A DNA stretch of 48,375 nt from a virus. Numbering within the stretch: the first letter of the stretch is position 1; every line of letters starts with the position of its first letter. The notes under the pieces are model-generated. The model searched no databases, was not told where the DNA came from, and was given only the letters and a program-made list of their open reading frames with translations. The stretch covers positions 1 to 48,375 of the IMG/VR virus record IMGVR_UViG_3300025940_000002. One strand, given 5' to 3'. Position numbers and translations under genes: made by a program. This document shows, one piece after another, positions 7,115 to 38,910 of this stretch.

Positions 7115-7803
7115 GCCTCTCCGACCTGGACCACCTGGCCGCCCCGATCTGGAGCGACTTCCGCGACGACGCCACCAACCAGGCGACGCGGGCGCTGCTG
7201 CTGACCCACTACCAGGTCCTGGCCGATCGCGCGGCGACCACCCGCGCCCGAAAGGCCCGCATCGAGGACGAGCCCTTCGACCGGGACGACCTGGCCCAGG
7301 AGCTGGCGATCAAGCTCGGCGACCTGCTGGACAGCTACGACCCGGCCTTCAACGTGCCCTTCTCGAAGTACGCCTCGCCCCGCCTGGTGGGGCTGGCGAT
7401 CGACCAGGTCCGCAACGTCAAGCAGTCCCGCACCGTCTTCGGCGCCAGGCACGGCCGGCCGCTGCAGCTGGCCGAGGCCGCGGGCCCGCACGACAAGGGC
7501 GACGACTGGATCGAGGACAAGCGCCCCGACCCGTACGCCGCCGCGGCCGCGGACAAGGCCTTCCGCCGGGAGCTGCTGGCCGGCATCACCGAGCGCCGCG
7601 ACCGGTGCTTCGTGCTGCTGCGCTGGTACCGCGGCATGAGCCTGGCGGCGATCGGCCGGCGGTGGGGGCTGAGCGAGAGCCGCATGAGCCAGCTGCAGAG
7701 CCGCCTGGTGCGGGTGCTGATGGTCGCGATGGACCGCCCCGAGCTGGCCGGCGCCCGGCCCGCGTACGTCACCCACTCGAAGAACCGGAGGAAAGCCGCG
7801 TGA
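7111..7803 (+). CDS. FliA/WhiG-like RNA polymerase sigma factor (230 aa)
   Basis: Residues 57-103 match sigma region 2: DRDDLAQELAIKLGDLLDSYDP, then VPFSKYASPRLVGLAIDQVRN, as in FliA/WhiG factors. Residues 160-205 match region 4: RRDRCFVLLRWYRGMSLAAIG, then LSESRMSQLQSRLVRVL. A linker of about 55 residues lies between, and the length of 230 aa is typical for the FliA group. Such factors direct core polymerase to their own promoters, so this protein could switch the host polymerase to late phage genes. The GTG start overlaps the upstream stop, and the next gene overlaps in turn, leading straight into terL. Which promoters it reads is unknown; the twin element is one candidate. Confidence 0.88.
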   Translation: MSLSDLDHLAAPIWSDFRDDATNQATRALLLTHYQVLADRAATTRARKARIEDEPFDRDDLAQELAIKLGDLLDSYDPAFNVPFSKYASPRLVGLAIDQVRNVKQSRTVFGARHGRPLQLAEAAGPHDKGDDWIEDKRPDPYAAAAADKAFRRELLAGITERRDRCFVLLRWYRGMSLAAIGRRWGLSESRMSQLQSRLVRVLMVAMDRPELAGARPAYVTHSKNRRKAA

Positions 7804-8012
7804 CGCACGAAGCCGACGCGCCCGTGTTCATCCTCGTCGTGCGGCCCCGGCCGAGCGCCGACGTCCGGCCCGGCAAGCAGGTCGACCGCCTGGTGCGCGT
7901 GGCCAAGGCCGCCGGCGTGGACGTGGTCGCGCGCGGGGAGCTGCCCGAGGGCGTGCCGTTCAAGGCCGCCGTCGAGGCCGCGCAGGCGCTGGCGATGGAG
8001 GGCGCGGACTGA
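7800..8012 (+). CDS. Small hypothetical protein between sigma factor and terL (70 aa)
   Basis: GTG at 7800 overlaps the sigma stop (GTGA), and its stop overlaps the terL ATG (TGATG). The protein has an alternating beta/alpha pattern (VFILVVRPRPSADVRPGKQV, then LVRVAKAAGVDVVARGELPEG). I do not recognise a family. Its position suggests it is made with the packaging motor. Confidence 0.7.
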   Translation: MTHEADAPVFILVVRPRPSADVRPGKQVDRLVRVAKAAGVDVVARGELPEGVPFKAAVEAAQALAMEGAD

Positions 8013-9757: not shown

Positions 9758-9814
9758 GACGATGAGACGAGCACCGTCAAAAGCCCGTTCCCGCGGGCGA
9801 ACCTCCTGGAGCTG

Positions 9815-10030
9815 GTGACTGGATCCGAAGTGAGCCGAAGATCTGCACGGAGGCCCGCGCCGCCGCGGCCCCGACCCCGCTGGCTCGAGTTTTTGTGGCT
9901 GGTCGCGCTGGGCGTGTTCGCCGGCGTGGCCCTGTACGCGTTCGGGTACCTGACGCCGGCCGAGCCGGCGCCGCCGGCGACCTGGCGGCCAGGCCACCGC
10001 TGGTACCACGACGTCCGAGAAGCCGATTGA
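9815..10030 (+). CDS. Single-span membrane protein (71 aa)
   Basis: A short frame between terL and portal with a Pro/Arg-rich N-terminus and one clear transmembrane helix (FLWLVALGVFAGVALYAFGYL). GTG 9815 has GGAG only 3 nt upstream; GTG 9830 is an alternative start. It could be an exclusion or accessory lysis protein; nothing in the sequence decides. A strong hairpin follows 10 nt after the stop. Confidence 0.6.
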   Translation: MTGSEVSRRSARRPAPPRPRPRWLEFLWLVALGVFAGVALYAFGYLTPAEPAPPATWRPGHRWYHDVREAD

Positions 10031-10040
10031 ACAAACGAGA

Positions 10041-10070
10041 GCGGCCGCCCCGTCGCGTTGGGGCGGCCGC
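10041..10070 (+). terminator. Strong hairpin upstream of the portal gene
   Basis: Perfect 11-bp arms GCGGCCGCCCC (10041-10051) and GGGGCGGCCGC (10060-10070) with an 8-nt loop. No T-tract follows (CTCGTCG), so it may be an RNA-processing or stabilising hairpin or a partial terminator between terL and portal. Confidence 0.6.
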
Positions 10071-10125
10071 CTCGTCGTACCACGCTCAAACCCTTGTACG
10101 CCCGACACCCTACCGAGGAACCCCG

Positions 10126-12000: not shown

Positions 12001-12214
12001 GGGTCACCGCGCCAGCTACCAGACAGCAGCTCGACAGCAGCCCCGAGCAGGCCGCTGTTGAGTAGCTCCCGGTCGCGACGCCGGCGATCGTCGCCGCGGC
12101 CAGCAGGCCGGCGCTCAACAACCAGAGTCGGTGGTACCTCATCGTCGTCGTCCTCCTGGTCTGATTCTCCAGCCAGTCCAGCTCGTCCTCTGACAGCGGC
12201 GTCCAGTGCCTCAC
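11834..12214 (-). CDS. Two-helix membrane protein overlapping the portal 3' end (126 aa)
   Basis: GTG at 12214 opens a frame with strong G/C bias at third codon positions. It has an acidic N-terminus (LSEDELDWLENQ), then hydrophobic helices LWLLSAGLLAAATIAGVATG and a Cys-containing one (AACSGLLSSCCLVAGAVTL), followed by a basic cytoplasmic-looking tail. Its last 167 nt are antisense to the portal gene. It also overlaps the tail of the upstream leftward gene in another frame, where its own codon use is clearly better. A role in membrane exclusion or host interaction is possible but unproven. Confidence 0.65.
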   Translation of the reverse strand: MRHWTPLSEDELDWLENQTRRTTTMRYHRLWLLSAGLLAAATIAGVATGSYSTAACSGLLSSCCLVAGAVTLRRRRARTSRWVGPTLYRQPIPDFPQLLERAIDRTAHLHPPAPATWTEYGRRRSA

Positions 12215-12875
12215 GCTCCAGCTCCTTGGTTACGGCCAGCAGGTCGTCGTACGTGAACGCGGCCGCCGTCGGCGAGGCCACGGTGCCGCCGTCGTACATC
12301 GACGCCGGCGGCAGGCGCTTGCCCCAGCCCGGCGCCGCCTTCTCCTTCGGGCGGCCGTTCGCCTTCTCCCGCGCGATCGCGACCTCGGCGACCTCGGCGG
12401 CGCCGTGCGGGTCGAAGATCCGCGCCTCGCCGAAGTGGAAGGCTTCCTCCAGCTCATGCTCCACGACGTGGCGCATGGCCCGCATCACGCAGCGCACCAG
12501 GACGACGTCGGGCACGACGATCGGCCGCTGCCGGTACTGCAGCCGGTTGCGCTGCTCGACCTCGTGCTGGTCGACCGTGACGTTCGCGTGGAAGGCCAGG
12601 TTGGTCGGCGTGCCGCGGACCCGGTCCGGGACCTGGAACAGCACCGACAGGTGGCAGCACCGCCAGCTCGCGAAGCGGACGTGCTTCCGCTTCTCGTCGT
12701 AGGGCGGGTAGTCGTTGGCCCAATGCGACGTTACGGCCATCGGGATCGGGAAGTTCCGCAGCTGGATCCAGGGCGACAGGTACTCGATCCGCTCGGGCAC
12801 GTAGACCCCGTAGCGCTCGCAGAGCTGCACGAAGTCCTCGGGGTGGCTCGACACTTTGGAGGCCAAATCGTCCAT
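11859..12875 (-). CDS. Hypothetical protein with doubtful C-terminal tail (338 aa)
   Basis: The supported part is residues 1 to about 220 (12875 to about 12215). It contains Trp-, Cys- and His-rich stretches (RFASWRCCHLSVLFQVPDRV, then RCVMRAMRHVVEHELEEAFHFG) and a region that mentions neither signal peptide nor membrane helix. No family is recognised. I use ATG 12875; TTG 12884 would add three residues, and neither has an SD, so coupling to the upstream gene 20 nt away is likely. Beyond 12215 the frame stays open but its codon use collapses, and the membrane protein gene takes over. A TGA at 12213-12211, overlapping that gene's GTG, would be the natural end but is out of frame. Confidence 0.6.
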   Translation of the reverse strand: MDDLASKVSSHPEDFVQLCERYGVYVPERIEYLSPWIQLRNFPIPMAVTSHWANDYPPYDEKRKHVRFASWRCCHLSVLFQVPDRVRGTPTNLAFHANVTVDQHEVEQRNRLQYRQRPIVVPDVVLVRCVMRAMRHVVEHELEEAFHFGEARIFDPHGAAEVAEVAIAREKANGRPKEKAAPGWGKRLPPASMYDGGTVASPTAAAFTYDDLLAVTKELEREALDAAVRGRAGLAGESDQEDDDDEVPPTLVVERRPAGRGDDRRRRDRELLNSGLLGAAVELLSGSWRGDPQAPAGANEPLGRPDPLPPADPGLPPAPGEGDRPDGPPAPPGPGNMD

Positions 12876-12894
12876 CCGTGCCAAGGTAGTGAAG

Positions 12895-13269
12895 TCAACC
12901 CGCGTAGCAACACTCCTTGCCCTTCAACCGGCGCCCCTCGGGCGAGCGCTTGCCGCAGGGGCAGTAGGTGTTGCGCTCGGCGTTGGAGTGGCGGCGGTAC
13001 TTCCCCGGCCGGGCGGCCAGGGCGAAGGCGGCGCCGGCGGCCGCCAGCGTCATGCGGCTGGGGGCCCGCTGCTGGAACGCCAGCGGGTCGAAGATGCTGC
13101 CGGCGGTCTCGGGCGTGCTCTGCTCGGCCGTCGCCAGCTCCACCAGGCCGCGCGGCGGCGGCCCGTCCAGCTCCAGGCCCTCGCCGTTGCAGTTGGGGCA
13201 GCCGTACTTACCCAGCCGGTCCTTCTCGAACTCGGCGCCGCAGAAGTCGCAGGTCGGCAGTGGGGTCAT
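12895..13269 (-). CDS. Zinc-ribbon protein with SEC-C-like tail (124 aa)
   Basis: The ATG at 13269 overlaps the upstream stop (TGATG) and gives CDFC near residue 8 and CPNC near residue 25, a typical zinc ribbon. The C-terminus (NTYCPCGKRSPEGRRLKGKE followed by CC) resembles the SEC-C metal-binding motif known from the SecA tail. Function unknown; nucleic-acid or protein binding is inferred. Confidence 0.7.
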   Translation of the reverse strand: MTPLPTCDFCGAEFEKDRLGKYGCPNCNGEGLELDGPPPRGLVELATAEQSTPETAGSIFDPLAFQQRAPSRMTLAAAGAAFALAARPGKYRRHSNAERNTYCPCGKRSPEGRRLKGKECCYAG

Positions 13270-13580
13270 CACGCGCCTCGCTGGGGTTGGGGTTGGGCCG
13301 GCAGCTCGCGGACCAGCTCGACGTCCCGGATGCACGCCTCGATCGACCGGTCGAAGTCGGCCAGGATCTCCTGCCAGTCTGCCTCGCTGAGGCGGTCGCG
13401 CGAAGTGCGGATTGTGTGAGCAATCAAACGTAACGGGTTGAGCTTGCCCTTCAGCGCGTGACGCAGCAGGTGGGCGTTCTTCTCCGGGTCGGGGGTCGTG
13501 ACGTCGGGGGGATCCGCGTAGTCGGCGAGCCGTGGGAATGAGCGGGGCCCGTCCGTGGGCTTCATGGTGTCGTCGGCCAA
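13269..13580 (-). CDS. Hypothetical protein (103 aa)
   Basis: TTG start at 13580 with a GGAG about 8 nt upstream inside a purine-rich tract, which decides the start. The protein is helical with a conserved-looking segment HALKGKLNPLRLIAHTIRTS and a Pro/Gln-rich end. No family recognised. It is part of the leftward island with overlapping neighbours. Confidence 0.6.
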   Translation of the reverse strand: MADDTMKPTDGPRSFPRLADYADPPDVTTPDPEKNAHLLRHALKGKLNPLRLIAHTIRTSRDRLSEADWQEILADFDRSIEACIRDVELVRELPAQPQPQRGA

Positions 13581-13642
13581 CGCGGCGTCTCCCTCTCCAG
13601 GACAGACGGCGGCCGCCCCCGTGTGGTTTGGTTGGGAGGGCT

Positions 13643-13900
13643 TCAGGCCGCCTTACGCAACACTTCGGGCCCGATGCGGCCGGCGATGATCGCAGAGCCG
13701 CCCGCCGGCGTCGACGCCGCGGGCATGAGCACCGCCAGGCCCTTGTTGATCGCGTCGCGGACCGCCTGCCTGAAGCTCCGGCCGGGGTTCTCCCCGATGT
13801 AGCTCCGCAGTCGATCGACCTGGCCGGCGGTCAGGCCAACCTTCAGCTCGCGCATGGCGTTCGACTGCAGCGCACGCTTCCCCTTGGTGGGCTTGGGCAT
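13643..13900 (-). CDS. Ribbon-helix-helix-like regulator (85 aa)
   Basis: After a basic N-terminus (MPKPTKGKRALQSN) comes a short strand RELKVGL, a helix TAGQVDRLRSYIG, a turn and a second helix SFRQAVRDAINKGLAVLM. This order matches the Arc/MetJ/CopG ribbon-helix-helix fold, whose dimers bind operators with the strand. The ATG has GAGG about 8 nt upstream. It is the first gene of the leftward island and faces the divergent structural operon, a natural spot for a local repressor. Confidence 0.65.
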   Translation of the reverse strand: MPKPTKGKRALQSNAMRELKVGLTAGQVDRLRSYIGENPGRSFRQAVRDAINKGLAVLMPAASTPAGGSAIIAGRIGPEVLRKAA

Positions 13901-14061
13901 CTACGACCTCGGTTGTGGAGAAAGAAACCGCCCGGGTGCGAAGCGCCCCCGTCTCGGAGTCACACCTTCATCGGTTTTACCCTCCCAAATGCTCGATTCA
14001 AAGCCGGCGGTCTGCGGGGCCGTAGATTCCGGCCCGCGCGGCCCGATGTTGGGGGGCACAG
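13901..14061. promoter_or_regulatory. Divergent intergenic control region
   Basis: This 161-bp gap between divergent genes is AT-richer than its surroundings around 13950-14000. On the - strand TTGAAT, 16 bp and TAAAAC could be a promoter for the leftward island. No convincing + promoter is seen. Ribbon-helix-helix protein operators could lie here. Confidence 0.35.
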
Positions 14062-14394
14062 ATGGCCCTGTACCCCTGGAGATGCCCGTGCGGTAACGAG
14101 GACGAGACCTACGCCACGATGCGGAACGCGCCCCAGCTCGGGGAGCTTCGACCGTGTCCTGCGTGTGGGGGTCGGAACACTCTCGCCCGCGTCGTCGCTT
14201 TGCCCGGTGTGAACCGGGAAAAGCAGGCCGCCGATCTCAAGTACCCCTACGTGTCACGGTCGCACTCGGCCGAGGCGCTGGGGATCTCGACGGTCGACAA
14301 GGCCGGCCACCCGGTGGTTCTCAACAAGGCCAGTGAACGAGAGGCGGCCGCCCGCGCGACGGCGTTCTACGGGACGCGCGTCCACCGCGAGTGA
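14062..14394 (+). CDS. FmdB-like zinc-ribbon protein (110 aa)
   Basis: The first residues (MALYPWRCPCGNEDETY) and a second knuckle CPACGG near residue 32 form a zinc ribbon like that of FmdB-type small regulatory proteins. Residues 50-85 (KYPYVSRSHSAEALGI, then GHPVVLNKASEREAAAR) are also seen in phage head regions next to scaffold genes. Its role is unknown. It begins the capsid gene block. Confidence 0.7.
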   Translation: MALYPWRCPCGNEDETYATMRNAPQLGELRPCPACGGRNTLARVVALPGVNREKQAADLKYPYVSRSHSAEALGISTVDKAGHPVVLNKASEREAAARATAFYGTRVHRE

Positions 14395-25497: not shown

Positions 25498-28400
25498 ATG
25501 GACCCCCTGGAAGCTGCCGAGCAGCGCCTGATTCAACGCCTGAGCGACCCCCTGGCCACCGACGACCCCGCGGCCGGGATCAACGTCAACGAGACCGGCG
25601 AGACGATCGCCACCGAGGTCCCGACCCCGCCACGCCCCCAGCAGCCGTGGCAGCCGGCCCAGACGCGCGCCAACAACGTCTACGTGGGCCAGGACGAGGC
25701 CGGGCAGCTCACCAACGCCCCCGACCCCCTCCAGCAGGCCGAGGCGAGGCTGAAGCTCCACCAGGGGATGCAGACGCCCGGGACCGAGCTGGCGCCCCTC
25801 CTGCGGAACGCCAGCCGCCTGAAGGCCATCCCCGACATCGACACCCACGGCAACGAGCTGGCCTACCGCGACATGGTCGAGGCGAGCCACCGGGCGGCCG
25901 ACATGACGACCGTCGGCGGCGCGATCGGCGACCTGGGGCACTCGGCCCCGGTCGACCTGACGCATGAGCAGTGGCTGGAGGCCCGGCGCCGCTGGCAGAT
26001 CAACAACCCGACCCAGCCGATGCCGCCCCAGCTGAAGGTGTGGCAGCTCGGACTGCGGCGCCTCGAGCCCGACGGGAAGGCCGTCGAGGACTTCGCCTTC
26101 GACCAGACGCCCTACAACCCGGACCTGGAGAAGAGCCAGTCGATGATCAACCAGGCCCGCGACGTGCGCGACCGCACGGGCGAGGGCGGGACGCCGGAGG
26201 TCCTGAAGGGCACCAAGGAGCACCGCGACGCGGCCGCCCGCTCGGCCGAGGTTCAGCACCTGCGCGCGAAGTACGGCCCCGCGGCCGCCGACGTCCCCGA
26301 CGAGGACCTGATCGCGCACGAAGCCGGCCAGGGCCAGAAGGAGGCCCGGGACCTGACGATCGCCGCGGTCCGCAAGTCGCTGGCCAAGGGCGGCGGCACC
26401 GGCCAGCCGGTCTCCGACGTCGAGGCCATGACGCTGGCGCGGAAGAACCCCGACACGTTCGCCCCCGCCATCGCCGAAGAGCTGCTCCCCCGCCTGGTGG
26501 ACGAGGCGCGGGCCAACGCGACGAAGCGCAAGCTGGAAGGCCAGCTCCCCGGCGACTCGCCGGAGCGGCTGAAGTTCGAGAAGGCGGTCATCAAGGCCGC
26601 CGACGAGGTCGAGCTGGGCAAGAAGGCCTCGCTGCAGCTGGCGCCCGGACTGCCCAACGTCGGCGACTTCCTGCACTACATCGACGCCGCCACCCTCGGC
26701 CTGACCGACGCCATGACGCGCGGCTACGACGACGACACCCACGACCGGTACGTGGCCGCCAAGGAGGGCTACCGGCGCGACCACAAGCTCAACGTGTTCA
26801 TCGCGTCGACGCTGGGCTACTTCACGCCCGGGTCACCCAGCTACTACCTCGGCCGGGGTCTCTCCAAGGCGGTCGGGATCCCGATCCGCAACGCCGTCGC
26901 CGGCGTCGCCGCCGAGAAGTCGCTGGAGGGCGCCTGGAAGGCCGCGCGCCTCGCGCCCGCGGCCGACGCGTTCGCCAAGGCGCCCTGGCTCACCCGCGTC
27001 GGCGCGACGTCGCTGAGCGCCGCCGGAGAGATCCCGTTCTTCATGGCCGCGCAGGCGGCCGTCGAGGGCGAGGGGCAGAAGGCGCTGGACGCGTTCAACG
27101 TGGCCAAGCCCGAGACCCGCGCCGGGATCGCGGGCGCGCTGGTCCTGGGGCCGCTGGTCGCCGAGGGCCCCCGCGCCGTCCGCGTCGCGTGGCGGTCCTA
27201 CACCGTCGAGCGCCAGCTGGCCGAGTCGCTGGGCAAGGGCTGGGAGCAGCACCTGGCCGACCTGGGCATCACGATCACCGACAAGGAGGCGCTGGCCCGG
27301 GTCGCGAAGCTGGAGGAAGGGCTGCGCGCGGGCAAGGACTTCTACCAGGCCGCGCAGGACGCGAAGGTCTCGGTCAAGGACATGAAGGAGGCGGTCGAGC
27401 TGGGCCGCTCGATCAAGGAGGCGAAGGCCGCCAAAGCCAAAGCGGACGCCGAGGCCGCCCCGCCCTCCCAAAGGGGAGAGGCCAGGGGAGAGGGACGGCG
27501 CGCCGCACTGCCGGCGCCTCAGGGATCCGGGGGAACCGACCAGGCCCCCGGGTCCGCTGGGGAACCCCCGGCGGCCCCGCCGCGGCCCGCCCCGTCCGAC
27601 CGCGAGCTGCAGACCCTCACCCCGTACCAACGCGCCTGGTACGACCTGGCCAACCCCAACGGCAACGCCCGCGAGGTCTTCGACCAGGTGCGCGACCTGG
27701 ATCCGGGGGATCCGAAGAGCGGCTTCGAGCCCGGCAAGGAGCTGCTGGGGCCCCGCGACGCGATGCGGGCCCGCACGCGCCACCTGCTGGACCAGTACGC
27801 CCCCAAGCGCGCCGACGGGACGCGCAGCTTCAACCTGCCCGCGGGGAAGGACCTGGCCGAGATCCGCGACGCCCTGAAGGTGCTGAACGACGCCCACGAA
27901 GGGCCGGTCGGCGAGGACGCCGCGCCCCTGGTGAAGGAGGTCGCCCGGTTCAAGAAGATCGCGGAGCGGACCGCGGAGCTGGAGAAGTACGTCGACTCCG
28001 GCAAGCCGATCAACACCCCCGGCAAGCCCGGCCGCGACTACGAGGACCGGGCCCTGCCCGACGCCGGGCCCCTCGGCGAGCCCACCTGGCGGCCGAAGCT
28101 GTCGAGCATGGCGGCCGCGAAGAGCCGCGCGCAGGCGATCGGCATCGACCCCAAGACCCTGGGCAAGACCCAGCAGGTCCCGCTGGCCCACGTCCTGGAC
28201 CGCGGCACCCCGAACGCCGGCCAGGTCGACGCCACGAAGCTCCGGCTGAAGCCCGGCGCGGACAGCCAGGCGGACGCCGTGCCCCCGCTGGTCGTGCGGA
28301 AGATGCGCAACGGCGGCTACGAAGTGCTGAGCGGCCGCGAGAGCTACCACGCCGCCAAGGCGCTGGGACTCAAGCAGGTACCAGTCATCATCGCCGACGG

Positions 28401-31400
28401 CGCGAAGCCGCCGGCGGACGTCCCGAGCGAGAACCGCGAGCAGAAGCCCGTCCCCGCCACCGAGGCGGACCTGGCGAAGCGCAAGCCCAAGGCGCCGGCC
28501 ACGCCGGTCGAGAAGACCGACCCCGCCCCGCTGCGTCCCCCGGGCCCGCGCTGGACGAACAACCCGGGCGCGATCCCGGGCGAGCCCGCGCTGCTGCTGG
28601 ACGTCAAGGACGGCGACCCCGACACGGCCGCCGCGGCGGTGGTCGAGGTCGAGGTCGAGGGCAAGGGGGTGCTGTACGAGGCGCGGGACGCCGACGGCAA
28701 CGTGATCGCGCGTGAGGCGACCGTCGAAGAGGCCGCGGCCGCGGCCGAGAAGGCGGTCAAGCCCAAGACCGACCCGGCCCTGGACCAGGACCTGAAGATC
28801 GCGGGGCTGGATCCCGCGGCCGAGATCCTCAAGGCCGCGCGCCAGCTGGAGACGCTGCGCGAGCGCCGCCGCACCGGCGGGGGCGAAGAGGCCGACGACG
28901 CGACGATCGACAAGCTGGCCGCCGCCATCCAGCGGGACCTGGCCGCCTACGGCGAGAAGTTCGGGGAGGACGCCGCCGACGCCCTCCTGGAGAAGATCCA
29001 GAAGACCGAGAGCGACTGGAGCCTGTTCAACAAGGACAAGGCCCGCGTCACGAAGGAGCTGAGGGAGTCGGGCATCTCCAAGCTGGGGGACACCCGCGCG
29101 AAGGTCATCCCCGCGCCCGGGTCGAGCTACCCGGCCGACTCGTTCACGTTCGAGCTGGAGACGATGGGCCAGCGGGCGACGTCGCCGCTGCGCTTCCCGA
29201 CCATGGAAGAGGCGGCCGACGCCGCCGCCAAGGAGCTGCTGGGCCCCGACCCCGACGAGCTGGAGGCGAAGCGCAAAGCCGCTACACTGCCCCCGGCCGA
29301 TTCAACGGGCCAGGAAGGAGTCACCAGCAATGGCGAAGAAAGCGATGACGTCCAAGGCGACGACCAAGAAGCCGGCGGGCGCGATGCGCAACCGGACGGC
29401 GACGGCAAAGACGTCGACCAAGGGCAAGGGCAACAAGGCGAACAGGGCGTAACCGGCACCGAGCCCGGCGCCGGTACGGACCCCGGCGCCGGGTCTCACA
29501 CTCCCCCCTCCACAACCCACGGCGACCCCAAGAAGGCGGCGAAGCTGCGCGCGCTGGCGGACGCCATGCAGCCGCAGATCGACAACAAGCTGCGTCCCGC
29601 GATCGGCGACCAGCGGCCCACGCCGCGCCGCCAGCGCATCGCCGAGCAGATGCGCCAGGAGGGTCTCTTCCTGGAGAAGGTCCAGCTCCTGATGCGGAAG
29701 CTGGCGGACCTGCACGACGCGAAGGCGGTGCCCGCGTCGCTGCTGAACGTCGACAACCGCGCGCAGGCCGTGCGGGCGCTGCAGGCCCACGGCGGCCTCC
29801 ACGCCGAGACCCAGCAGGCGGCGCGGGACCTGGTCGCCGGCGTCAAGAGCGCCAGCGCGGCCGAGATCGAGCTGAAGCGCCTGACCGCCAAGCTGGTGGG
29901 CGTGAAGATCCCGGGGTTCTTCCCCACGCCGCCGGCGGTCGCCGACCAGGTGGCCCAGATGCTGGCGATCGAGCCGGGCATGTCGGTCCTGGAGCCGTCG
30001 GCCGGCCTCGGCAACCTGGTGGAGGCGGTGCTTCGCGCGCAGCCGGCCGCCGACGTCGTGGCGATCGAGCGCTACGGCGACCTGCGCGCCGTCCTGAAGC
30101 ACAAGGGGTTCAAGCTCGCCGGCGTGGACGACTTCACGCAGCTGGACAAGGCCCACAAGTTCGACCGCATCGCGATGAACCCGCCCTTCGAAAACGGGCA
30201 GGACATCGAGCACACCCTGAAGGCCTGGGAGCACCTGAAGCCCGGCGGCGCCCTGGTCTCGATCCTGAGCGAGGGCGTGTTCTACCGCCAGGACAAGAAG
30301 GCGACGGCGTTCCGGGAGTTCCTGGAGGAACACGGCAACCCCAGCGACGTCTACAAGCTCCCCGCGGGCACCTTCAAGGACAAGCTCACCGGCCACGACA
30401 CCAACACCGCGGCGCGGATCGTGAGGATCTCCAAGTCGATCAAGGCGAAGACCGCCGAGATCGACCTGACGGAGACGGGCGACCACGACAAGCCGATCTG
30501 GACCTGGAGCCCCCACCAGTTCGGCGCCATGGGCTACGAGGCGAGGCGCTCCGGCGCCCTGTGGCGGATCCTGGACCCCGACGAGGCGCTGGTCTGGACC
30601 GTCAGCCACACCGAGGGCGTGCCCGTCGGCAGCTCCAACAAGGCCTTCGAGCTGTTCCGCCAGCACGTCGAGCAGCTGGCGATCGACAAGGGGCTCTACA
30701 AGCCGCCGACCGCCCTGACCCTGGTCTGGAAGGGCGAGGGCGCGAACACGGGCCGCAACGCGACCATCGTCACCGCCGGCGACCCCGTGCCGGCCGTCTA
30801 CGCGATCGTGGACGCCGACGAGCTGCAGCCGAGCCACAACCCGATCACGTTCAAAGCCAACCCGCTGTACCCGACCAACGTCCAGGAGCGCGACTACGCC
30901 AAGGACAAGGAAGAGCAGGCGAAGGTCAACCGCCAGGTGACCGACTTCAACCCGGCGCTGCTGCTGACCGACAACCCCGACCCGACCAACGGCCCGCCGA
31001 TGGTGCTGCGGAGCGGCCTGGTGATGGGCGGCAACAGCCGCACGATGACGATCCAGACCATCTACGGCCTGGGCAAGAGCACCTCGCACGACCCCCGCGC
31101 CAAGAGCTTCCGCCTGCAGACGATCGAGGCGGCCGAGCGCTTCGGGATCTCCACCGACGTCGCCAGCGGCTTCCGCAAGCCCGTCCTGGTGCGCGTCATC
31201 GCCGAGCCCACCAACGACCCGGCGAAGATGCGCGAGCTGGTGCGCGCCCTGCAGAAGGGTCTGACGCAGGAGATGAGCGGCGCGATGGACGCCGCCAGCC
31301 GCGCCCGGATCCTGATGGACAACCCGGACGCGCTGCAGCGGCTGGAGGCCCTGCTGGGCGACGACGACTCGGTCCGCGAGCTGCTCGAACAGCCGATCAA

Positions 31401-34400
31401 GACCGCGCGGATCCGGGACTGGCTGGTGGGCAGCGGCGCGATGAGCCGCCAGGAGGCGGCCCGCTACATCCACAACGAGACCGGGATGTTCAACGCCGAC
31501 GGCAAGGCGCTGATCGAGCGGATCCTGCAGGCCGTGGTCGTGCCCGACGTCGCGATCTTCGACAACCTCCCCTTCCACACCGCCAACAAGGTGACCGGCA
31601 ACCTCTACGGCCTGGTCTTCCCCAAGACCAAGGGCGGGGATTGGGACTACACGATCGCGCTGAACCGGGCGCTGGTGGCGTTCTTCCGCTGGCGCGCGAG
31701 CGGCGCCCCGCTGGAGAGCTGGCTGAAGGGCCAGGACAAGGACGGCCAGGCGCTGATGGCGAAGGACCCGATCGCCGACGACCCCCGCGGCCGCGTGCTG
31801 CTGGAGCGCCTCGCCGGCGACACGTCCACCGTGTGGCGGGCGCGCGTGAAGGCCTTCCTGGAGTTCGCCCGGGACGCCGACCCCAACCAGACGGAGATCT
31901 TCGCCGGGGCGCGGGCCAGCGCGAGCGACGCGTTCCGCGCCGCCTTCATGCTGACCGAGCCCACGGGCCCCGACGGCAAGAGCACGATCCCCGAGAAGAA
32001 AGCCTCCGGCGGCGGGTTGTTCGGCGGCGGCCCGGCGGCCTACTACGAGCAGCTCGATCGACTCCGCGAGCTGCTGAGCTGGCCGGAGAACATGAGCCCG
32101 AAGCTGCGCGGGATCCTGGGGATGCCGCGGCGGGTGGCCGACGCGACCGGGGTCGTGATGATGAGCGGCGAGGCCGGCCCCCTCGGCGGCAAGCCCGTCG
32201 ACGTGGCCAAGCTCCTGGGCGACCCCGAGACGGCCGAGCACCTGACGCGCATCGCGACGTTCCACCTGGAGCAGCACGCCGACGCCGGCGACAAGCTGCA
32301 GGGCCGGTGGGCTACCGGGGTAGCGACGGATTTGCGGTCGATCCTCCGGGACCTGGGGTACACTCCCGACGGCGACACGTTCACGGACCTGCTGGAGAAG
32401 CTCTGGCAGCAGCTGAGCGACGACGCCGACGTGAAGGACGCCCTGGGGGACCTTCCCCCGTTCAACAGGAGGCAGGTAGCCGGTGGACAACGCAAGTCGA
32501 AGGGCTCTGGTGGTCGAGGCTCTGCACCAGCTGGAGGACGAACCGGCGGGGCCCCCGCGGGGGGTGGACAGTCTGGGTCAGGACCTGTGGGAGGTCCTGG
32601 CCTTCCGCCCGACCAGGTCGATGGACCGGGTGCCGATCCCGGAGTGGTTTCCGACGACGGACCCGACGACCTTCCTGCGGACGCTGACGGGGACGATGGA
32701 ACTCCTGGCTGGGTCCCACCCGGGCAGCGGGCTGACTATCTCGCCGCGCTCAACAGCGAACGCGTTGTGCCTTATGCACCGAGGCCTCCGCAGCGGGCTG
32801 GACATCACCACCCCCGAATCCTTGTCGAGTCTAAAGCCCTCGCAGGCGTGAAGCCCGGGGAGCTGGAGGGCTACGAGCCCGACCCGCGCGCCGTCGGCGA
32901 CCTGTCCGACCCCCAGCGCGACCAGGTGGCGGCCGTCGGCTACCGGATCGAGCACGCCGACGCCGGCGCCCTCGTCAGCGACGACGTCGGCGTGGGCAAG
33001 AGCCGGATCATCGGCGGCATCATCGCCGACCAGGTGCTGCGCGGCCTCGGCGGGATCCCCCGCGCCGCCGCCCAGATCCTCGTCCTCACGAAGAACCCCC
33101 AGAACGTGGCGGACCTGACGCACACGTTCCACGAAGAGATGAAGGGCACGTTCCGCCCCCTCCTGGAGGGCGGGCTGACGATCCACGCGCTGGACGACGT
33201 CGGCGGCGCCGTCAGCAACTGGGGCACGACGCCGCCGGCGGGCGCCCCCAAGCCGTTGACGAGCGAAGAGTGGTACGACCGACTCCCCGCGTTCCCCGAG
33301 CTGCCCATGGGGCCCGGCCGGTCGTTCTGGGTCGTCACCCTCAACCACATTCGCCAGGGCCAGCGGCTCAACCTGGACGCGTTCACGAAGCTGGACATGG
33401 CCGGCAAGAAGATCGACGCGCCGCTGCTCGATTGGGTCTACAAGATCGGCTACACGGCCGACACCAAGCCGGACGCGAACGGGCTGACGTGGCTGCTGCC
33501 CCCCAAGGACGCCTGGGGCCCGCCGGCGGCGCCCGCCGGATCCACCGACAAGCCGCGCGTGGTCCTGGCCCACACCTACAACCTGACCCGGCACCTGGCC
33601 GAGCTGCAGCGCTGGGGCCCGACGCTGGTCATCGTTGACGAAGCGCACCTCTACGCCAACATCGCCGGCGACGCGCAGCGGGCCAACTCCCTGGCCGCCC
33701 TGACGTCGTCCGTGCTGTACCCCAAGTCCGGGCCCCACGGGCACCTGGTCTACATGACGGCGACGCCGGCGAGCGACATCAGCGCGCTCCAGTTCATGTA
33801 CGGGCTGGGACTGTGGGCCCCCGAGGACGCCGTCAAGAACCACCTGGCCGGCGACAAGATGGGCTTCGACGCCTGGCTGCACAACGCGACCGGGGTAACG
33901 AAGGCCGGCAGCTGGCGCGAGAGCATCGCGACGCCGATCATCGAGCAGCTCATGCGCGAGCTGAAGATGGACAACGCGTACCACGCGCTGGACTTCTGGC
34001 GCGGCGGGTTCACGTTCGAGATGCGCCAGGCGAAGGTCACCAAGGTCGACACCGACGCCTACGACGTGCTGGCCGACACGCTGCTGAGCGCGATCCGCCT
34101 GTACCAGGAGGCGCGCAAGCTGGTCGGGAAGGCCCCGAGCTGGCCACGCCCCACGCCGGCCAACTTCGAGCGCATCGCCAACGGCGAGGACATCCCGCAC
34201 GACGAGAAGAGCGCCCCCATGCGGCCCGACGGCCAGGCGATCTTTTTCGTGAAGCGCCTCCTGGTGCAGTTCAGGATGCAGGCCGCGATCGAGGCGGCCA
34301 AGGAGGCACTGGCCCGCGGCGAGCAGGTCGTGTTCAAGGTCCTGGGCGTGACGGAGACCGCGCTGACGGGCGACGGGGGCAACCTCGGCGCCGTGTTCGA

Positions 34401-37400
34401 CTCGATCCCGCACTTCCTCCCGCTCCGCAACAAGGCCGGGCAGATCAAGGGCTGGCGGGTGAACGACGGGGTCCGCGGCACCGTCGACAACCTCCGCGCC
34501 CGCGCCGCGCACCTGGGGAAGGGCTACAAGATCCTCTCCCCCCTCAAGCAGATCCTGGACGAGTTCGGGGAGTCCAACGTGGCCGCGATCGTCGGCCCGA
34601 CGGCACCGAAGGACCGCGTCGCTCAGAACGCCGACTTCCAGGCGGGCAAGCGCAAGGTGGCGGTCATCTCCCCCGCCGGCACCACGGGGATCAACCTGCA
34701 GGACCTGGGCACCGGCAAGCGGTTCATGGTCGTGCTGGATCTCGATTGGGACAGCAAGGAGTTCAAGCAGTCGCTGGGCCGGGTCGACCGGGCCAACCAG
34801 ACGACGAGCCCGGGCGCCGTCACGATCTACACCCCGATCGCCGGCGAGCGCAAGTTCCAGGCCACGATCGCCGCCAGGATGAAGGCGCTGGGCGCCATCG
34901 CCAAGGGGCAGACCGACGCCGGGGCCACCGAGGACGCGCTGAACGACTTCGACATGGAGTCGAGCACCTGGCACACCGCGATCAACCGCGTCATGCAGCA
35001 GATGACGTTGGGCGAGCGGGGCATGATGCTCCACGGGGAGAAGTTCGACGCCGAGGGCGAGATCTCCTGGCGCGACTTTCAGAACGACCTGATGATGCTC
35101 CCGGTCGCGACCGGCAACGCCATCTACGACAAGGCCGAGGCGATCTGGAAGGAGCTGGAGGCGCTGGACGAGGCCAACCGCGGCGGCCGCGTCGCGCGCC
35201 GCAACCGCGGCCTGATCCGCGAGACCGCCGACCTGGACGAGAGCCGCCAGTACCCGCTGCAGCTCCACACCGTCGAGTCGGTCACCGGCGAGACCTACGG
35301 GATCCTCTCCGGGAAGATCCTGACCCGCCCGGCCAAGAACACGCCGGCGAAGGTCATCACGGACGCCGTCTACGGCAAGCACGCCACCCAGCTGGAGCGC
35401 AACCAGTTCGTCACCATGCAGCAGGGCGACCGCGTCGTCACCGGCCTGTACGTGCCCCGCTCGAAGCTCCCGATCGTGAAGGCCCTCTTCGGCTACATCC
35501 CGCCGGCGCCCGTGGGCCCCGACGCCAACGGCCCCTTCCCGCCCGGCAACAAGGCCGGCCGCGAGACCGGCCCGATCCTCAACGCCGTCAGCGACGACCT
35601 GCCGCCGGAGGTCCTGGACAAGATGCCCCCGCGCGCGGCGCTGCTCGCGCAGGCCCCGAACCTCCCGCCGGCGACGCTGGCGTTGAAGCACAAGCCGCGC
35701 GGCAAGCTGGTCACGCGCCAGCAGCTCACCGACCACGTCATCAAGCGCATGCGCTTCTCGATCGGCGTGGGCAAGCACCACCTGTTCCGGCCGCTGCGGG
35801 CGCTGGGCTTCTACCAGAGCCCCCACACCCGGATGATCCGCAACCACGCCGCCAACCTGATCGGCACCACCGCGCACGAAGCCGGGCACGCCATTGACGA
35901 CATCCTCACGAACCTGACGCCGGACCCGGCCTACGACGCCGAGCTGCTGCCCCTGGGGCGCCGCACGTCCAAGCCGAGCTACACGAAGGTCATGGTCCGC
36001 CGCGAGGGCGCCGCCGAGTTCTTCCGCACGTACGTCATCGACCCCAAGGCCGCCTACGCCGCGGCCCCGACGTACGCCGCCTGGTGGGAGAAGGAGCTGC
36101 AGACGAAGCAACCGGAGCTGTGGCAGGCGGTGCGCGAGTACCAGGCCCTGGTGCAGCAGTACATCGCGCAGGACCCGGCCGAGCGGCTCGAGGCGCAAAT
36201 CGACTGGAACGGCGGCGGGCCCACCTTCCGGTCGCCGCTGGCCACCGAGACCACCGTCCGCAGCTGGTACCAGAAGTCGATCGACCGCTTCGCGCCCCTC
36301 AACTGGGCGCGGCAGGACCTGAACAAGACCAAGGCGCCGCTGCCGACCAACTTCTCCGGCGACGCGTACGTGCAGGCCCGGCTGAACGCCGGCAACCGCG
36401 CCATGGTCGACGGCTGGGTGCGCTTCGGCGTGCGCGACCGGGACGGCACGGCGCTGGCGCCGGGGCTGCTGCCGATGCTCCACTCGCTGGGGATCCGCGG
36501 CGGCCGCCGGTTCATGGAGCTGGAGATGTACCTGCTGGCGCGCCGCGCCAACTACCTCTACGACCAGGCACTGGCCGGGAAGCGCAAGCTCAAGAACGTG
36601 GTCGACCCCGCCGGCGGCCCCCTCGGCGTCACGCACGACCAGGCGAAGGCGACGATCGCGAAGTACGACTCGCCGGCGTTCCGCTCCGCCGCCAAAGCAG
36701 TCAAAGACTGGAACGAGGCGGTCTTCCGCTGGCTGCAGGGGTCGGGGTTCTTCGAGCCCGGCGCGCTGGCCAAGATCCGCGCCATGAACGAAGAGTACGT
36801 CCCGATGTACCGGGTGCTCGACCACCTGGCCGGGGACGGCGGCGGCGGCAAGAGCCTGGTCGACAAGGGCCCGGCCTTCCACATGATCCGGGGCTCGGGC
36901 CGGATGATAAAGCGGCCGATCGAGACCATGATCCGCAACGTCGCGCGGATCGTGGACCACGTCGAACAGAACCGCGCCGCGGTGCTGATGTTCAACGAGA
37001 TCCGCGGCAAGGACGGCGCCGGCCTCTGGGCCGACCGCGTCGCGCGGCCGATCAAGGGCGTGACGTTCGCGCTGTCGGAGATCAAGAAGAGCCTGATCGC
37101 CGCCGGCGTCGACCCCGACGACCTGAAGCCCGACAAGGTCACCGGCGCCCCGCCGAAGATCGACCTGGACACCCTGGCCACCGTCTTCCGGCCGATCGCC
37201 CACAACCCCCGGGACATGGTCATTGCCCTGCGCGTGGGCGGGAAGATCCTGCTCTGGCAGGTGCACGTCCCGATGCTCTATGAAGCGCTGACGGGCAAGC
37301 CCGACGCCGTACCCACCAACAACGTGATCCTCCGGCTGCTGATGATGATGCAGCAGGCCATGACGATCGGGTTCACCCGGACCGCGGAGTTCGCCACCGG

Positions 37401-38910
37401 CAACATGCAGCGCGACCAGGGCACCGCGTTTCTACAGTCGCGGTACGGCTACAAGCCCTTCTGGGATTTCGTGTCGGGGCTGCTCCACGCCGTCACCGAG
37501 GACTCCACCTACCAACTATGGCTTCAGTCCAAGGGCGGCGCCTCCACCCGCGTCGGCAGCTATAGCGACCCGCTGGAGCACTCGATCGGCAAGCTGAAGA
37601 CGAGCCCGGGCCGCCGCGCGCTGGGGCTGCTCAACGTGCCCCTGCGGATCCTGGACGTGATGGAGTACCTGAGCCAGAACTTCGAGAGCGCCACCCGCAT
37701 CTCGGAGTTCGCCCGGGGCATGGCCAAGGAGGGGTCGGGGGTCGAGGGGCTGAGCCGCTCCGGCCTGGCGTCGCGTGACGTGACGGTCGACTTCAGCCGC
37801 TCCGGGACCTGGGCGCGGGAGATCGGCCAGTGGAAGGCGTTCTTCAACGCGAACGTCCAGGGCAACGACTACTCGCTGCGCCACCTGGTGGGCCGCGGCG
37901 GCACGGCGAAGAGCCGGATCCGCGCCGCCCTCAACTTCATCGCCCGCGGCCTGGCGGGCATCACGGCGCTGTCCCTGATCCTGCACTACCTGGGCCGGGA
38001 CAACCCGCACTACCAGGAGCGGTCGCTGGAGCGCGAGAACTACTGGCTCATCCCGCTGGGCAACCCGCGCACGACGGACTCGTTCCTGCGGATCCGCAAG
38101 CCGCACGAACTGGGCGCCCTGTTCGGCACCCTCGGCGAGAAGATCATGGAGGACCTGATCACCCGCCACCCCGACCAGGTGAAGGACTACGTCGCCAGCC
38201 CCGGGGCGGCGCTGCAGATGGTCGCCTACCTCATCCCCTCGGCGATCCAGCCGATGGTGGAGGTCATGGCCAATTACGACTTCTACCGCCGGCGGCCGAT
38301 CGTCACCCCGGACCTGAAGGACCTGGAGCCCGAGCTGCAGTACAACCGGTACACCAGCGAGACGGCCAAGGCGATCGGCCACGCGCTGGGCGTGTCCCCG
38401 GTCAAGGTCGACCACCTGGTCTACGGCTACTTCGGCACCCTCGGCCGCGACGCGACCACGGACGTGATCGACCCGCTGGTGAACCTGCTGAAGGGGCGCA
38501 AGGCGCCGGCGGTCCCGGACCGCGGCGGCGTCGAGCAGCGGATCCCCGGCCTGCGTCTGTTCTTCTCGAAGGACCTGACGCCCGGCGCCGCCGACAGCGT
38601 CAACGACTTCTACCAGCTGGCCGACCGACTCCGCACCGTGAAGCGTTCGATGAAGAGCTACACGGGCGAGACCCTCGCGCGGTACGCCAAGGAGAACCGG
38701 GACGTCCTGGCGAGGGAGCTGGACATCGAGACCGCCGAGGACGGGATGAAGCTGCTGCGCGACCAGGTGCAGAAGGTCTACGTCGACCCCGACCTGACCG
38801 CGGCAGAGAAGCGGCGGCGGCTGCAGCTGCTGGGCGATAGGATGGTGAACGTGGCCCGCGGAGCCCTGGGGCGGCCGCCCCTGCCGAGCCGGGCCGAGAG
38901 CACCAACTAA
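25498..38910 (+). CDS. Giant polyvalent protein: ParB-like, methylase, SF2 helicase, HEAGH peptidase, LPD38-like (4470 aa)
   Basis: One open frame takes 28% of the genome. Domains in order: hydrophobic segments around 430-570; a ParB-like domain at about 890-968 (YEVLSGRESYHAAKALGLKQ); an N6-adenine methyltransferase at about 1474-1650, with motif I VLEPSAGLGNL at 1497 and catalytic NPPF at 1561-1564; a DdrB/ParB-like domain at about 1785-1960 (VLRSGLVMGGNSRTMTI); a Strawberry-notch-like SF2 helicase with Walker A GVGKS at 2498-2502, DEAH at 2714-2717, TATPASD near 2753 and SLGRVDRANQT near 3092; a zinc peptidase motif HEAGH at 3460-3464; and an LPD38-like end (VDFSRSGTWAREIGQWKAFF) near 4096, followed by a hydrophobic helix. 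Polyvalent proteins of this kind, including DarB of P1, enter the cell with the DNA and block restriction. ATG 25498 has AAGGAG upstream. Two linkers carry nested genes in another frame. Confidence 0.9.
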   Translation: MDPLEAAEQRLIQRLSDPLATDDPAAGINVNETGETIATEVPTPPRPQQPWQPAQTRANNVYVGQDEAGQLTNAPDPLQQAEARLKLHQGMQTPGTELAPLLRNASRLKAIPDIDTHGNELAYRDMVEASHRAADMTTVGGAIGDLGHSAPVDLTHEQWLEARRRWQINNPTQPMPPQLKVWQLGLRRLEPDGKAVEDFAFDQTPYNPDLEKSQSMINQARDVRDRTGEGGTPEVLKGTKEHRDAAARSAEVQHLRAKYGPAAADVPDEDLIAHEAGQGQKEARDLTIAAVRKSLAKGGGTGQPVSDVEAMTLARKNPDTFAPAIAEELLPRLVDEARANATKRKLEGQLPGDSPERLKFEKAVIKAADEVELGKKASLQLAPGLPNVGDFLHYIDAATLGLTDAMTRGYDDDTHDRYVAAKEGYRRDHKLNVFIASTLGYFTPGSPSYYLGRGLSKAVGIPIRNAVAGVAAEKSLEGAWKAARLAPAADAFAKAPWLTRVGATSLSAAGEIPFFMAAQAAVEGEGQKALDAFNVAKPETRAGIAGALVLGPLVAEGPRAVRVAWRSYTVERQLAESLGKGWEQHLADLGITITDKEALARVAKLEEGLRAGKDFYQAAQDAKVSVKDMKEAVELGRSIKEAKAAKAKADAEAAPPSQRGEARGEGRRAALPAPQGSGGTDQAPGSAGEPPAAPPRPAPSDRELQTLTPYQRAWYDLANPNGNAREVFDQVRDLDPGDPKSGFEPGKELLGPRDAMRARTRHLLDQYAPKRADGTRSFNLPAGKDLAEIRDALKVLNDAHEGPVGEDAAPLVKEVARFKKIAERTAELEKYVDSGKPINTPGKPGRDYEDRALPDAGPLGEPTWRPKLSSMAAAKSRAQAIGIDPKTLGKTQQVPLAHVLDRGTPNAGQVDATKLRLKPGADSQADAVPPLVVRKMRNGGYEVLSGRESYHAAKALGLKQVPVIIADGAKPPADVPSENREQKPVPATEADLAKRKPKAPATPVEKTDPAPLRPPGPRWTNNPGAIPGEPALLLDVKDGDPDTAAAAVVEVEVEGKGVLYEARDADGNVIAREATVEEAAAAAEKAVKPKTDPALDQDLKIAGLDPAAEILKAARQLETLRERRRTGGGEEADDATIDKLAAAIQRDLAAYGEKFGEDAADALLEKIQKTESDWSLFNKDKARVTKELRESGISKLGDTRAKVIPAPGSSYPADSFTFELETMGQRATSPLRFPTMEEAADAAAKELLGPDPDELEAKRKAATLPPADSTGQEGVTSNGEESDDVQGDDQEAGGRDAQPDGDGKDVDQGQGQQGEQGVTGTEPGAGTDPGAGSHTPPSTTHGDPKKAAKLRALADAMQPQIDNKLRPAIGDQRPTPRRQRIAEQMRQEGLFLEKVQLLMRKLADLHDAKAVPASLLNVDNRAQAVRALQAHGGLHAETQQAARDLVAGVKSASAAEIELKRLTAKLVGVKIPGFFPTPPAVADQVAQMLAIEPGMSVLEPSAGLGNLVEAVLRAQPAADVVAIERYGDLRAVLKHKGFKLAGVDDFTQLDKAHKFDRIAMNPPFENGQDIEHTLKAWEHLKPGGALVSILSEGVFYRQDKKATAFREFLEEHGNPSDVYKLPAGTFKDKLTGHDTNTAARIVRISKSIKAKTAEIDLTETGDHDKPIWTWSPHQFGAMGYEARRSGALWRILDPDEALVWTVSHTEGVPVGSSNKAFELFRQHVEQLAIDKGLYKPPTALTLVWKGEGANTGRNATIVTAGDPVPAVYAIVDADELQPSHNPITFKANPLYPTNVQERDYAKDKEEQAKVNRQVTDFNPALLLTDNPDPTNGPPMVLRSGLVMGGNSRTMTIQTIYGLGKSTSHDPRAKSFRLQTIEAAERFGISTDVASGFRKPVLVRVIAEPTNDPAKMRELVRALQKGLTQEMSGAMDAASRARILMDNPDALQRLEALLGDDDSVRELLEQPIKTARIRDWLVGSGAMSRQEAARYIHNETGMFNADGKALIERILQAVVVPDVAIFDNLPFHTANKVTGNLYGLVFPKTKGGDWDYTIALNRALVAFFRWRASGAPLESWLKGQDKDGQALMAKDPIADDPRGRVLLERLAGDTSTVWRARVKAFLEFARDADPNQTEIFAGARASASDAFRAAFMLTEPTGPDGKSTIPEKKASGGGLFGGGPAAYYEQLDRLRELLSWPENMSPKLRGILGMPRRVADATGVVMMSGEAGPLGGKPVDVAKLLGDPETAEHLTRIATFHLEQHADAGDKLQGRWATGVATDLRSILRDLGYTPDGDTFTDLLEKLWQQLSDDADVKDALGDLPPFNRRQVAGGQRKSKGSGGRGSAPAGGRTGGAPAGGGQSGSGPVGGPGLPPDQVDGPGADPGVVSDDGPDDLPADADGDDGTPGWVPPGQRADYLAALNSERVVPYAPRPPQRAGHHHPRILVESKALAGVKPGELEGYEPDPRAVGDLSDPQRDQVAAVGYRIEHADAGALVSDDVGVGKSRIIGGIIADQVLRGLGGIPRAAAQILVLTKNPQNVADLTHTFHEEMKGTFRPLLEGGLTIHALDDVGGAVSNWGTTPPAGAPKPLTSEEWYDRLPAFPELPMGPGRSFWVVTLNHIRQGQRLNLDAFTKLDMAGKKIDAPLLDWVYKIGYTADTKPDANGLTWLLPPKDAWGPPAAPAGSTDKPRVVLAHTYNLTRHLAELQRWGPTLVIVDEAHLYANIAGDAQRANSLAALTSSVLYPKSGPHGHLVYMTATPASDISALQFMYGLGLWAPEDAVKNHLAGDKMGFDAWLHNATGVTKAGSWRESIATPIIEQLMRELKMDNAYHALDFWRGGFTFEMRQAKVTKVDTDAYDVLADTLLSAIRLYQEARKLVGKAPSWPRPTPANFERIANGEDIPHDEKSAPMRPDGQAIFFVKRLLVQFRMQAAIEAAKEALARGEQVVFKVLGVTETALTGDGGNLGAVFDSIPHFLPLRNKAGQIKGWRVNDGVRGTVDNLRARAAHLGKGYKILSPLKQILDEFGESNVAAIVGPTAPKDRVAQNADFQAGKRKVAVISPAGTTGINLQDLGTGKRFMVVLDLDWDSKEFKQSLGRVDRANQTTSPGAVTIYTPIAGERKFQATIAARMKALGAIAKGQTDAGATEDALNDFDMESSTWHTAINRVMQQMTLGERGMMLHGEKFDAEGEISWRDFQNDLMMLPVATGNAIYDKAEAIWKELEALDEANRGGRVARRNRGLIRETADLDESRQYPLQLHTVESVTGETYGILSGKILTRPAKNTPAKVITDAVYGKHATQLERNQFVTMQQGDRVVTGLYVPRSKLPIVKALFGYIPPAPVGPDANGPFPPGNKAGRETGPILNAVSDDLPPEVLDKMPPRAALLAQAPNLPPATLALKHKPRGKLVTRQQLTDHVIKRMRFSIGVGKHHLFRPLRALGFYQSPHTRMIRNHAANLIGTTAHEAGHAIDDILTNLTPDPAYDAELLPLGRRTSKPSYTKVMVRREGAAEFFRTYVIDPKAAYAAAPTYAAWWEKELQTKQPELWQAVREYQALVQQYIAQDPAERLEAQIDWNGGGPTFRSPLATETTVRSWYQKSIDRFAPLNWARQDLNKTKAPLPTNFSGDAYVQARLNAGNRAMVDGWVRFGVRDRDGTALAPGLLPMLHSLGIRGGRRFMELEMYLLARRANYLYDQALAGKRKLKNVVDPAGGPLGVTHDQAKATIAKYDSPAFRSAAKAVKDWNEAVFRWLQGSGFFEPGALAKIRAMNEEYVPMYRVLDHLAGDGGGGKSLVDKGPAFHMIRGSGRMIKRPIETMIRNVARIVDHVEQNRAAVLMFNEIRGKDGAGLWADRVARPIKGVTFALSEIKKSLIAAGVDPDDLKPDKVTGAPPKIDLDTLATVFRPIAHNPRDMVIALRVGGKILLWQVHVPMLYEALTGKPDAVPTNNVILRLLMMMQQAMTIGFTRTAEFATGNMQRDQGTAFLQSRYGYKPFWDFVSGLLHAVTEDSTYQLWLQSKGGASTRVGSYSDPLEHSIGKLKTSPGRRALGLLNVPLRILDVMEYLSQNFESATRISEFARGMAKEGSGVEGLSRSGLASRDVTVDFSRSGTWAREIGQWKAFFNANVQGNDYSLRHLVGRGGTAKSRIRAALNFIARGLAGITALSLILHYLGRDNPHYQERSLERENYWLIPLGNPRTTDSFLRIRKPHELGALFGTLGEKIMEDLITRHPDQVKDYVASPGAALQMVAYLIPSAIQPMVEVMANYDFYRRRPIVTPDLKDLEPELQYNRYTSETAKAIGHALGVSPVKVDHLVYGYFGTLGRDATTDVIDPLVNLLKGRKAPAVPDRGGVEQRIPGLRLFFSKDLTPGAADSVNDFYQLADRLRTVKRSMKSYTGETLARYAKENRDVLARELDIETAEDGMKLLRDQVQKVYVDPDLTAAEKRRRLQLLGDRMVNVARGALGRPPLPSRAESTN
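27473..27494 (-). repeat. CT-rich 22-mer inside the giant gene
   Basis: The inverted partner of 25458-25479 (21 of 22). It lies in the Pro/Ala/Gly-rich linker at residues about 650-700 of the giant protein and is translated in frame, suggesting a repeat that landed in a tolerant linker. Confidence 0.6.
29330..29452 (+). CDS. Nested basic small protein inside the giant gene (40 aa)
   Basis: In the +1 frame relative to the giant gene, ATG 29330 follows a strong SD (GGAAGGAG, about 9 nt away) and encodes 40 residues rich in Lys, Thr, Ala and Arg (MAKKAMTSKATTKKPAGAMR...), ending at TAA 29450. By eye, 37 of 39 codons after the ATG end in G or C, against 25 of 41 in the giant frame over the same bases. 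In the giant frame the stretch reads as an acidic Gln/Asp/Gly linker. An 11-bp hairpin follows 11 nt after the stop. The composition recalls DNA-condensing tails and the N-terminus of the protein at 40602. I regard it as a probable real gene. Confidence 0.6.
   Translation: MAKKAMTSKATTKKPAGAMRNRTATAKTSTKGKGNKANRA
29464..29493 (+). terminator. Hairpin following the nested basic gene
   Basis: Perfect 11-bp arms CCCGGCGCCGG (29464-29474) and CCGGCGCCGGG (29483-29493) with an 8-nt loop, followed by TCTCACACTCCCCC. It looks like the intergenic hairpins of this genome yet lies inside the giant reading frame. Confidence 0.5.
32483..32851 (+). CDS. Nested hypothetical protein inside the giant gene (122 aa)
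   Basis: GTG 32483 has a perfect AGGAGG SD 10 nt upstream and opens a +1-frame gene of 122 codons. Third positions are mostly G or C, while the giant frame here shows many codons ending in A or T and encodes a Gly/Ser/Pro/Asp linker (residues about 2328-2450). The nested product looks globular (ALVVEALHQLEDEP, LGQDLWEVLAFRPT, IPEWFPTTDPTTFLRTLTG). Its TGA (32849-32851) overlaps a GTG at 32848 that is in the giant frame just before the helicase domain, exactly like the GTGA junctions between true genes elsewhere in this phage. Function unknown. Confidence 0.6.
   Translation: MDNASRRALVVEALHQLEDEPAGPPRGVDSLGQDLWEVLAFRPTRSMDRVPIPEWFPTTDPTTFLRTLTGTMELLAGSHPGSGLTISPRSTANALCLMHRGLRSGLDITTPESLSSLKPSQA

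Follow-up and report, generated by a model that had tools for sequence, protein, structure and literature searches.

A probable overprinted gene in a domain linker of a giant polyvalent-protein gene of a phage

Introduction

Rz1 of phage λ, which lies inside Rz, is a fully nested, overprinted phage gene. The locus described here resembles Rz1/Rz in that a complete second reading frame, with its own start codon and Shine-Dalgarno (SD) sequence, is contained in a larger one, on the same strand and in another frame. It differs in that the nested protein lacks a signal peptide, a lipobox and a transmembrane stretch and is not a spanin, and in that the gene around it is 13.4 kb long and encodes a polyvalent protein, the site of nesting being a domain linker.

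The host gene is in turn like the genes for the phage-type polyvalent proteins (Iyer et al., 2017; PMC5512222): its product has ddrB-ParB, LPD38, helicase and methyltransferase domains, and the gene adjoins structural genes. The word "overlap" is absent from the text of that survey, and we came across no account of nested genes in polyvalent-protein linkers. Standard gene calling would normally give a single giant open reading frame (ORF) at this locus, and two conserved genes would be overlooked. Positions 32483–32851 of the DNA analyzed here are, as judged from sequence, very probably a real protein-coding gene that is fully nested (overprinted) in the +1 frame of the giant gene. The codon frame and the SD sequence support this, and the decisive support is that a related phage has conserved the gene.

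The giant gene and the nested reading frame

The stretch of DNA that was analyzed (the window) is a virus record of 48,375 bases from IMG/VR (IMGVR_UViG_3300025940_000002), with terminase-like, portal, capsid and tail genes. It also encodes a sigma-70-like factor with regions 2 and 4 (7111–7803). Structural genes lie upstream of the giant gene, a context in which the giant protein may be carried in the virion and injected. By its domain matches the giant protein is a phage-type polyvalent protein, in which several unlike domains, including the phage-specific ddrB-ParB and LPD38, are joined in a single chain. The features of the locus are as follows; L005 and L008 are a related phage and a distant relative, respectively, and GC3 is the G+C content at codon position 3.

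25498–38910, plus strand: giant ORF of 4470 aa without an in-frame stop; matches to ParB-like, DNA methyltransferase, ddrB-ParB, strawberry-notch-type helicase and LPD38 families; HEXXH motif
32467–32472, plus strand: AGGAGG, putative SD for the nested gene, separated by 10 bases from GTG 32483; anti-SD duplex −10.3 kcal/mol
32477–32479, plus strand: TAG shortly before GTG 32483, in the nested (+1) frame; not kept in L005
32482–32700, plus strand: linker of the giant protein, rich in Gly/Pro/Ala/Ser/Asp and presumably disordered, forming most of the overlap; giant-frame GC3 about 0.5 vs. 0.96 elsewhere
32483–32851, plus strand: probable nested gene, +1 frame relative to the giant; 122 codons, GTG start, TGA stop at 32849–32851
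32803–32850, plus strand: giant-frame motif HHHPRILVESKALAGV, kept in L005 and L008
32848–32850, plus strand: GTG proposed earlier as an internal helicase start; judged not to be a start (no SD; GTC in L005)
32989–33003, plus strand: Walker A motif GVGKS of the helicase, a sequence motif in the giant frame
35875–35889, plus strand: HEAGH, giant-frame motif resembling that of metallopeptidases; L005 has HEVGH

The nested ORF is complete, its start and stop both lying within the giant ORF. The AGGAGG, the TAG, the GTG and the 122-codon frame that an earlier, sequence-only reading had listed are all found in the sequence. Three of the features that draw attention to the locus were dropped as evidence, since chance yields them all: the length of the ORF (a +1-frame ORF at least as long turned up in 84 of 200 shuffles of the giant gene's synonymous codons), the bare AGGAGG (26 copies on the plus strand of the window) and the GTGA overlap that closes the ORF. 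An SD as strong as that of the nested gene is found at 1 of the 213 ATG/GTG codons of the giant gene (0.5%).

In the scheme that we propose, ribosomes on the mRNA of the giant gene would use the AGGAGG to initiate independently at GTG 32483, and the predicted product would be a soluble, acidic protein of about 13 kDa that is mostly helical. In the giant frame the same bases would specify a flexible linker that joins the ddrB-ParB part to the helicase and can accommodate the residues imposed on it by the nested frame. The giant chain would still be made at full length because its frame has no stop: any ribosome in that frame has to read through the overlap.

Codon usage in the two frames

The giant-frame GC3 is 0.957 overall and falls to 0.55 over the nested ORF, where the G+C content at the three codon positions of the nested frame is 0.65/0.55/0.84. 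When the same giant residues were recoded with the phage's own codon usage, GC3 was 0.97 and never below 0.91 (2000 trials). In L005 the giant GC3 in the overlap is 0.47 (local values 0.40–0.55), vs. a recoding minimum of 0.77. Among the ORFs of at least 30 codons in the window giant, the giant GC3 is below 0.9 only in two, the gene at 32483–32851 and a second, shorter nested gene described below; in the L005 giant the two lowest values among such ORFs belong to the counterparts of these two.

Codon preference was also scored with a model trained on seven other genes, as log-likelihood per codon in the nested and in the giant frame. Over the ORF the nested frame scores −4.04 and the giant frame −4.72, a difference of +0.68, while the difference in 3,814 other 122-codon windows of the giant averages −1.48 (sd 0.18) with a maximum of −0.66. 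The preference flips to the nested frame at GTG 32483, and in L005 at 8345. The earlier claim that codon use favors the nested frame thus holds, with the qualification that it does not extend over the whole ORF: the advantage ends at about 32810, which leaves out the last 13 or so codons.

The nested frame might merely look coding, with no second gene, if a linker rich in Gly, Pro, Ala and Asp (G or C at codon position 1) were combined with relaxed codon choice. Position 3 of the +1 frame is position 1 of the giant frame, so the G+C rich linker residues by themselves raise the nested GC3. Other linkers do dip mildly (GC3 is 0.75–0.80 at 27418–27597, for example), and the length of the nested ORF is at chance level. 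Composition accounts for the high nested GC3 but not for the fall of the giant GC3 to 0.55, given the 0.97 expected from normal usage. Nor does relaxed choice predict a shifted-frame sequence that is 38–41% conserved, or a conserved start with an SD. We therefore regard an explanation by composition as improbable.

Conservation of the nested gene in a related phage

A scan of IMG/VR with the C-terminal part of the giant protein brought up L005, a 46.8-kb contig (IMGVR_UViG_3300049889_000013). Its giant ORF (2771–14281) is 52–54% identical to that of the window in the matched parts. The match is confined to residues 1–973 and 1751 onward of the window giant, and the methyltransferase stretch (about residues 1436–1650) has no match in L005.

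In tblastn the nested protein matches L005 over residues 1–122 (L005 8343–8690) with an E-value of 1.5e-13, in the same frame and in the same linker; identity between the two nested proteins is 38–41%. The first possible start in the L005 frame after its upstream stop is a GTG at the equivalent residue. It is preceded by a weaker SD (GAGAGG, −7.5), and the ORF, which has 35 extra low-complexity codons, extends to 8816.

The nested-frame alignment scores 143, vs. 36 ± 11 for synonymous shuffles of each giant, and none of 2000 shuffles scored as high. It should be noted that the other frames are also in modest excess in this test (z about 3.5–4.2), because shuffling loses shared ancestry. For this reason the +1-frame conservation was also compared across the aligned giants, with ancestry kept, in all 76 aligned windows of 120 columns. 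Conservation of the +1 frame is highest at the overlap (z 27.4), and in other windows with giant identity below 45% the z is at most 4.3. The ratio of +1-frame to giant-frame conservation is 0.94–1.07 in the overlap windows, vs. 0.37 or less away from the linker. Analysis of codon-frame conservation, a check suggested in the sequence-only reading, thus finds the nested frame conserved beyond what the giant frame forces, in the one relative available for comparison. Together with the codon frame and the SD, this supports that reading's claim of a nested gene.

L005 is the sole relative found with a homologous nested gene when the viral contigs of IMG/VR were searched with the helicase, the giant C-terminus, L005 and L008 among other queries. 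Genome contigs gave no relative with the nested gene, and in phage and plasmid collections all matches were remote ones to the helicase or to LPD38. The similarity of three relatives found through the major capsid (L002–L004) does not reach the giant gene.

The giant frame, for its part, is maintained through the overlap as well. In the first half of the overlap it is position 2 of the nested codons that changes least; in the second half it is position 3 of the giant codons that changes most. At the 3′ end of the overlap the giant frame encodes HHHPRxLVESKALAG; L005 retains this motif and the distant L008 retains part of it, as THHHPSVVVETKALMG, so the giant frame is still coding there. The giant frame being open, with a motif on its helicase side kept through the overlap, the region would be dual coding.

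The proposed helicase start at GTG 32848

The sequence-only reading had gone further and suggested that the nested TGA passes ribosomes to GTG 32848 by coupled restart, so that a separate helicase-peptidase-LPD38 protein of 2020 aa is made. The geometry was described correctly: the TGA does overlap a giant-frame GTG that lies 47 residues before the Walker A motif, and the length of 2020 aa is right. The likeness drawn to junctions at 7111, 7800, 41964, 43075 and 45793 stands only in part. These are five real GTGA overlaps, and the overlap at 32848 is of the same form, but each of the five has an SD (−8.5 to −10.8 kcal/mol) and GTG 32848 has none: its anti-SD duplex of −2.6 kcal/mol is at the 59th percentile of internal ATG/GTG codons. 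The overlap itself is expected from geometry. Every +1-frame TGA necessarily overlaps a giant-frame NTG followed by A, so a start-like codon is expected there about 44% of the time (GTG, ATG or TTG; GTG alone, 20%). In L005 the residue of GTG 32848 is encoded by GTC (valine), the nested ORF ends 41 codons later (8816), and the giant codon overlapped there is CTG. A product from GTG 32848 would, moreover, lose the conserved HHHPRxLVESKALAG motif. On these grounds coupled restart is quite improbable, and we do not retain the separate 2020-aa protein.

A separate helicase piece could instead come from proteolysis. Peptidase domains have been proposed to process polyvalent-protein chains (PMC5512222). 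The HEXXH motif at 35875–35889, conserved as HEAGH/HEVGH, could belong to a processing peptidase of this kind; a Pfam search gave no peptidase match to it.

Frameshifting, sequence error and RNA structure

A programmed +1 frameshift would give a different product from the same bases: the N-terminal half of the giant protein either fused to the nested sequence or ended at TAG 32477, the latter also having been suggested in the sequence-only reading. An SD can stimulate frameshifting, and a CTTCCCCCGTTCAA stretch just upstream is common to both phages. A slip would, however, end at TAG 32477 in the window but enter the nested frame in L005, where the upstream +1-frame stop is instead TGA 8295, 48 bases before the start; no single conserved product would result. 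What is conserved is a GTG with a correctly spaced SD, and we see neither an in-frame stop nor any other codon at which ribosomes would stall. We consider frameshifting very improbable, and a role of the TAG in ending the upstream part is not supported.

Two compensating indels from sequencing or assembly could make one frame look like two, and such errors do occur in single contigs, but an independent contig of another phage has the same arrangement with the same borders, and within the 3′ part of the overlap a conserved motif can still be read in the giant frame; the splitting error that the earlier reading had named as its possible undoing is thereby contradicted and barely conceivable. Synonymous constraint alone could arise at the level of RNA, but the region has no Rfam match and its folding does not surpass that of shuffled sequences (z 0.30 and 1.15), and the signal is frame-specific and comes with a start and an SD, so that the chance of an RNA element rather than a protein is next to nil.

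The predicted nested protein

The product of the probable nested gene has a calculated mass of 13.2 kDa, a pI of 5.5 and no transmembrane segment (maximum 19-residue hydropathy, 0.52). Structure models of low confidence (mean pLDDT 63.5 and 52.5) suggest four or five helices. No relative was found in Pfam, PHROGs or PADLOC, including among known anti-phage-defense families, and a sequence search of the PDB gave nothing better than E 0.3. Foldseek comparison of the model with the PDB and BFVD gave no match below E 2; the model is too weak to interpret. The protein may possibly be a small partner made in fixed proportion to the giant protein, as a packaging or folding helper or as a co-injected effector. 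This is a guess, and somewhat unlikely to prove right.

A second putative nested gene and candidates in other giant genes

The window giant appears to contain another nested gene in a linker:

29330–29452, plus strand: putative nested gene, +1 frame, ATG start; Lys-rich product of 40 aa, pI 12; SD AAGGAG at 29315–29320

The giant GC3 over this stretch is 0.62. Its counterpart in L005 (6189–6317) lies in the matching linker, has an AGGAGG-type SD and encodes 42 aa with a pI of 11.4. The residue match between the two products is weak beyond composition (80 of 2000 shuffles reach it), so the case for this gene rests on position, SD, frame and make-up. The product has no Pfam match. With their 40–42 residues and pI of 11.4–12, the two proteins are like small Lys-rich, histone-tail-like DNA-binding proteins, in resemblance only.

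We offer tentatively, with more doubt than conviction, the view that linkers of giant polyvalent proteins are a general site of +1-frame overprinted genes in more than one phage lineage, possibly in other giants too. If it is true, one such locus would give both a multidomain chain and free small partners that gene finders miss. Should the pattern hold, giant injected phage proteins would conceal small companion proteins in their disordered linkers, and these would make up a testable set of missed phage proteins as well as a clean natural case of dual coding under two strongly different codon regimes.

Two ORFs are leads in this direction. In the distant relative L008 (IMGVR_UViG_3300042876_000370) a +1-frame ORF of 205 codons (9363–9980) lies in the methyltransferase-helicase linker. 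It has a GAGAGG SD and a GC3 dip (0.49 vs. 0.74), and is longer than the ORFs from 199 of 200 shuffles. It is not alignable with the nested gene of the window (the BLOSUM score is at shuffle level and the hhalign probability below 1%), and homology is not claimed. The giant genes of six isolate phages showed no clear nested gene except for one candidate. This is a 98-codon +1-frame ORF (7732–8028) in the LPD38 giant gene of Aeromonas phage phiARM81mr (KT898134), with an anti-SD energy of −11.4 and a local giant GC3 of 0.57 vs. 0.75; the phiARM81mr giant has no relative in the phage collection. In another LPD38 giant (L007) a +1-frame ORF of 48 codons is present at 6342–6488, with an SD of −8.9 and a giant GC3 of 0.55 vs. 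0.76.
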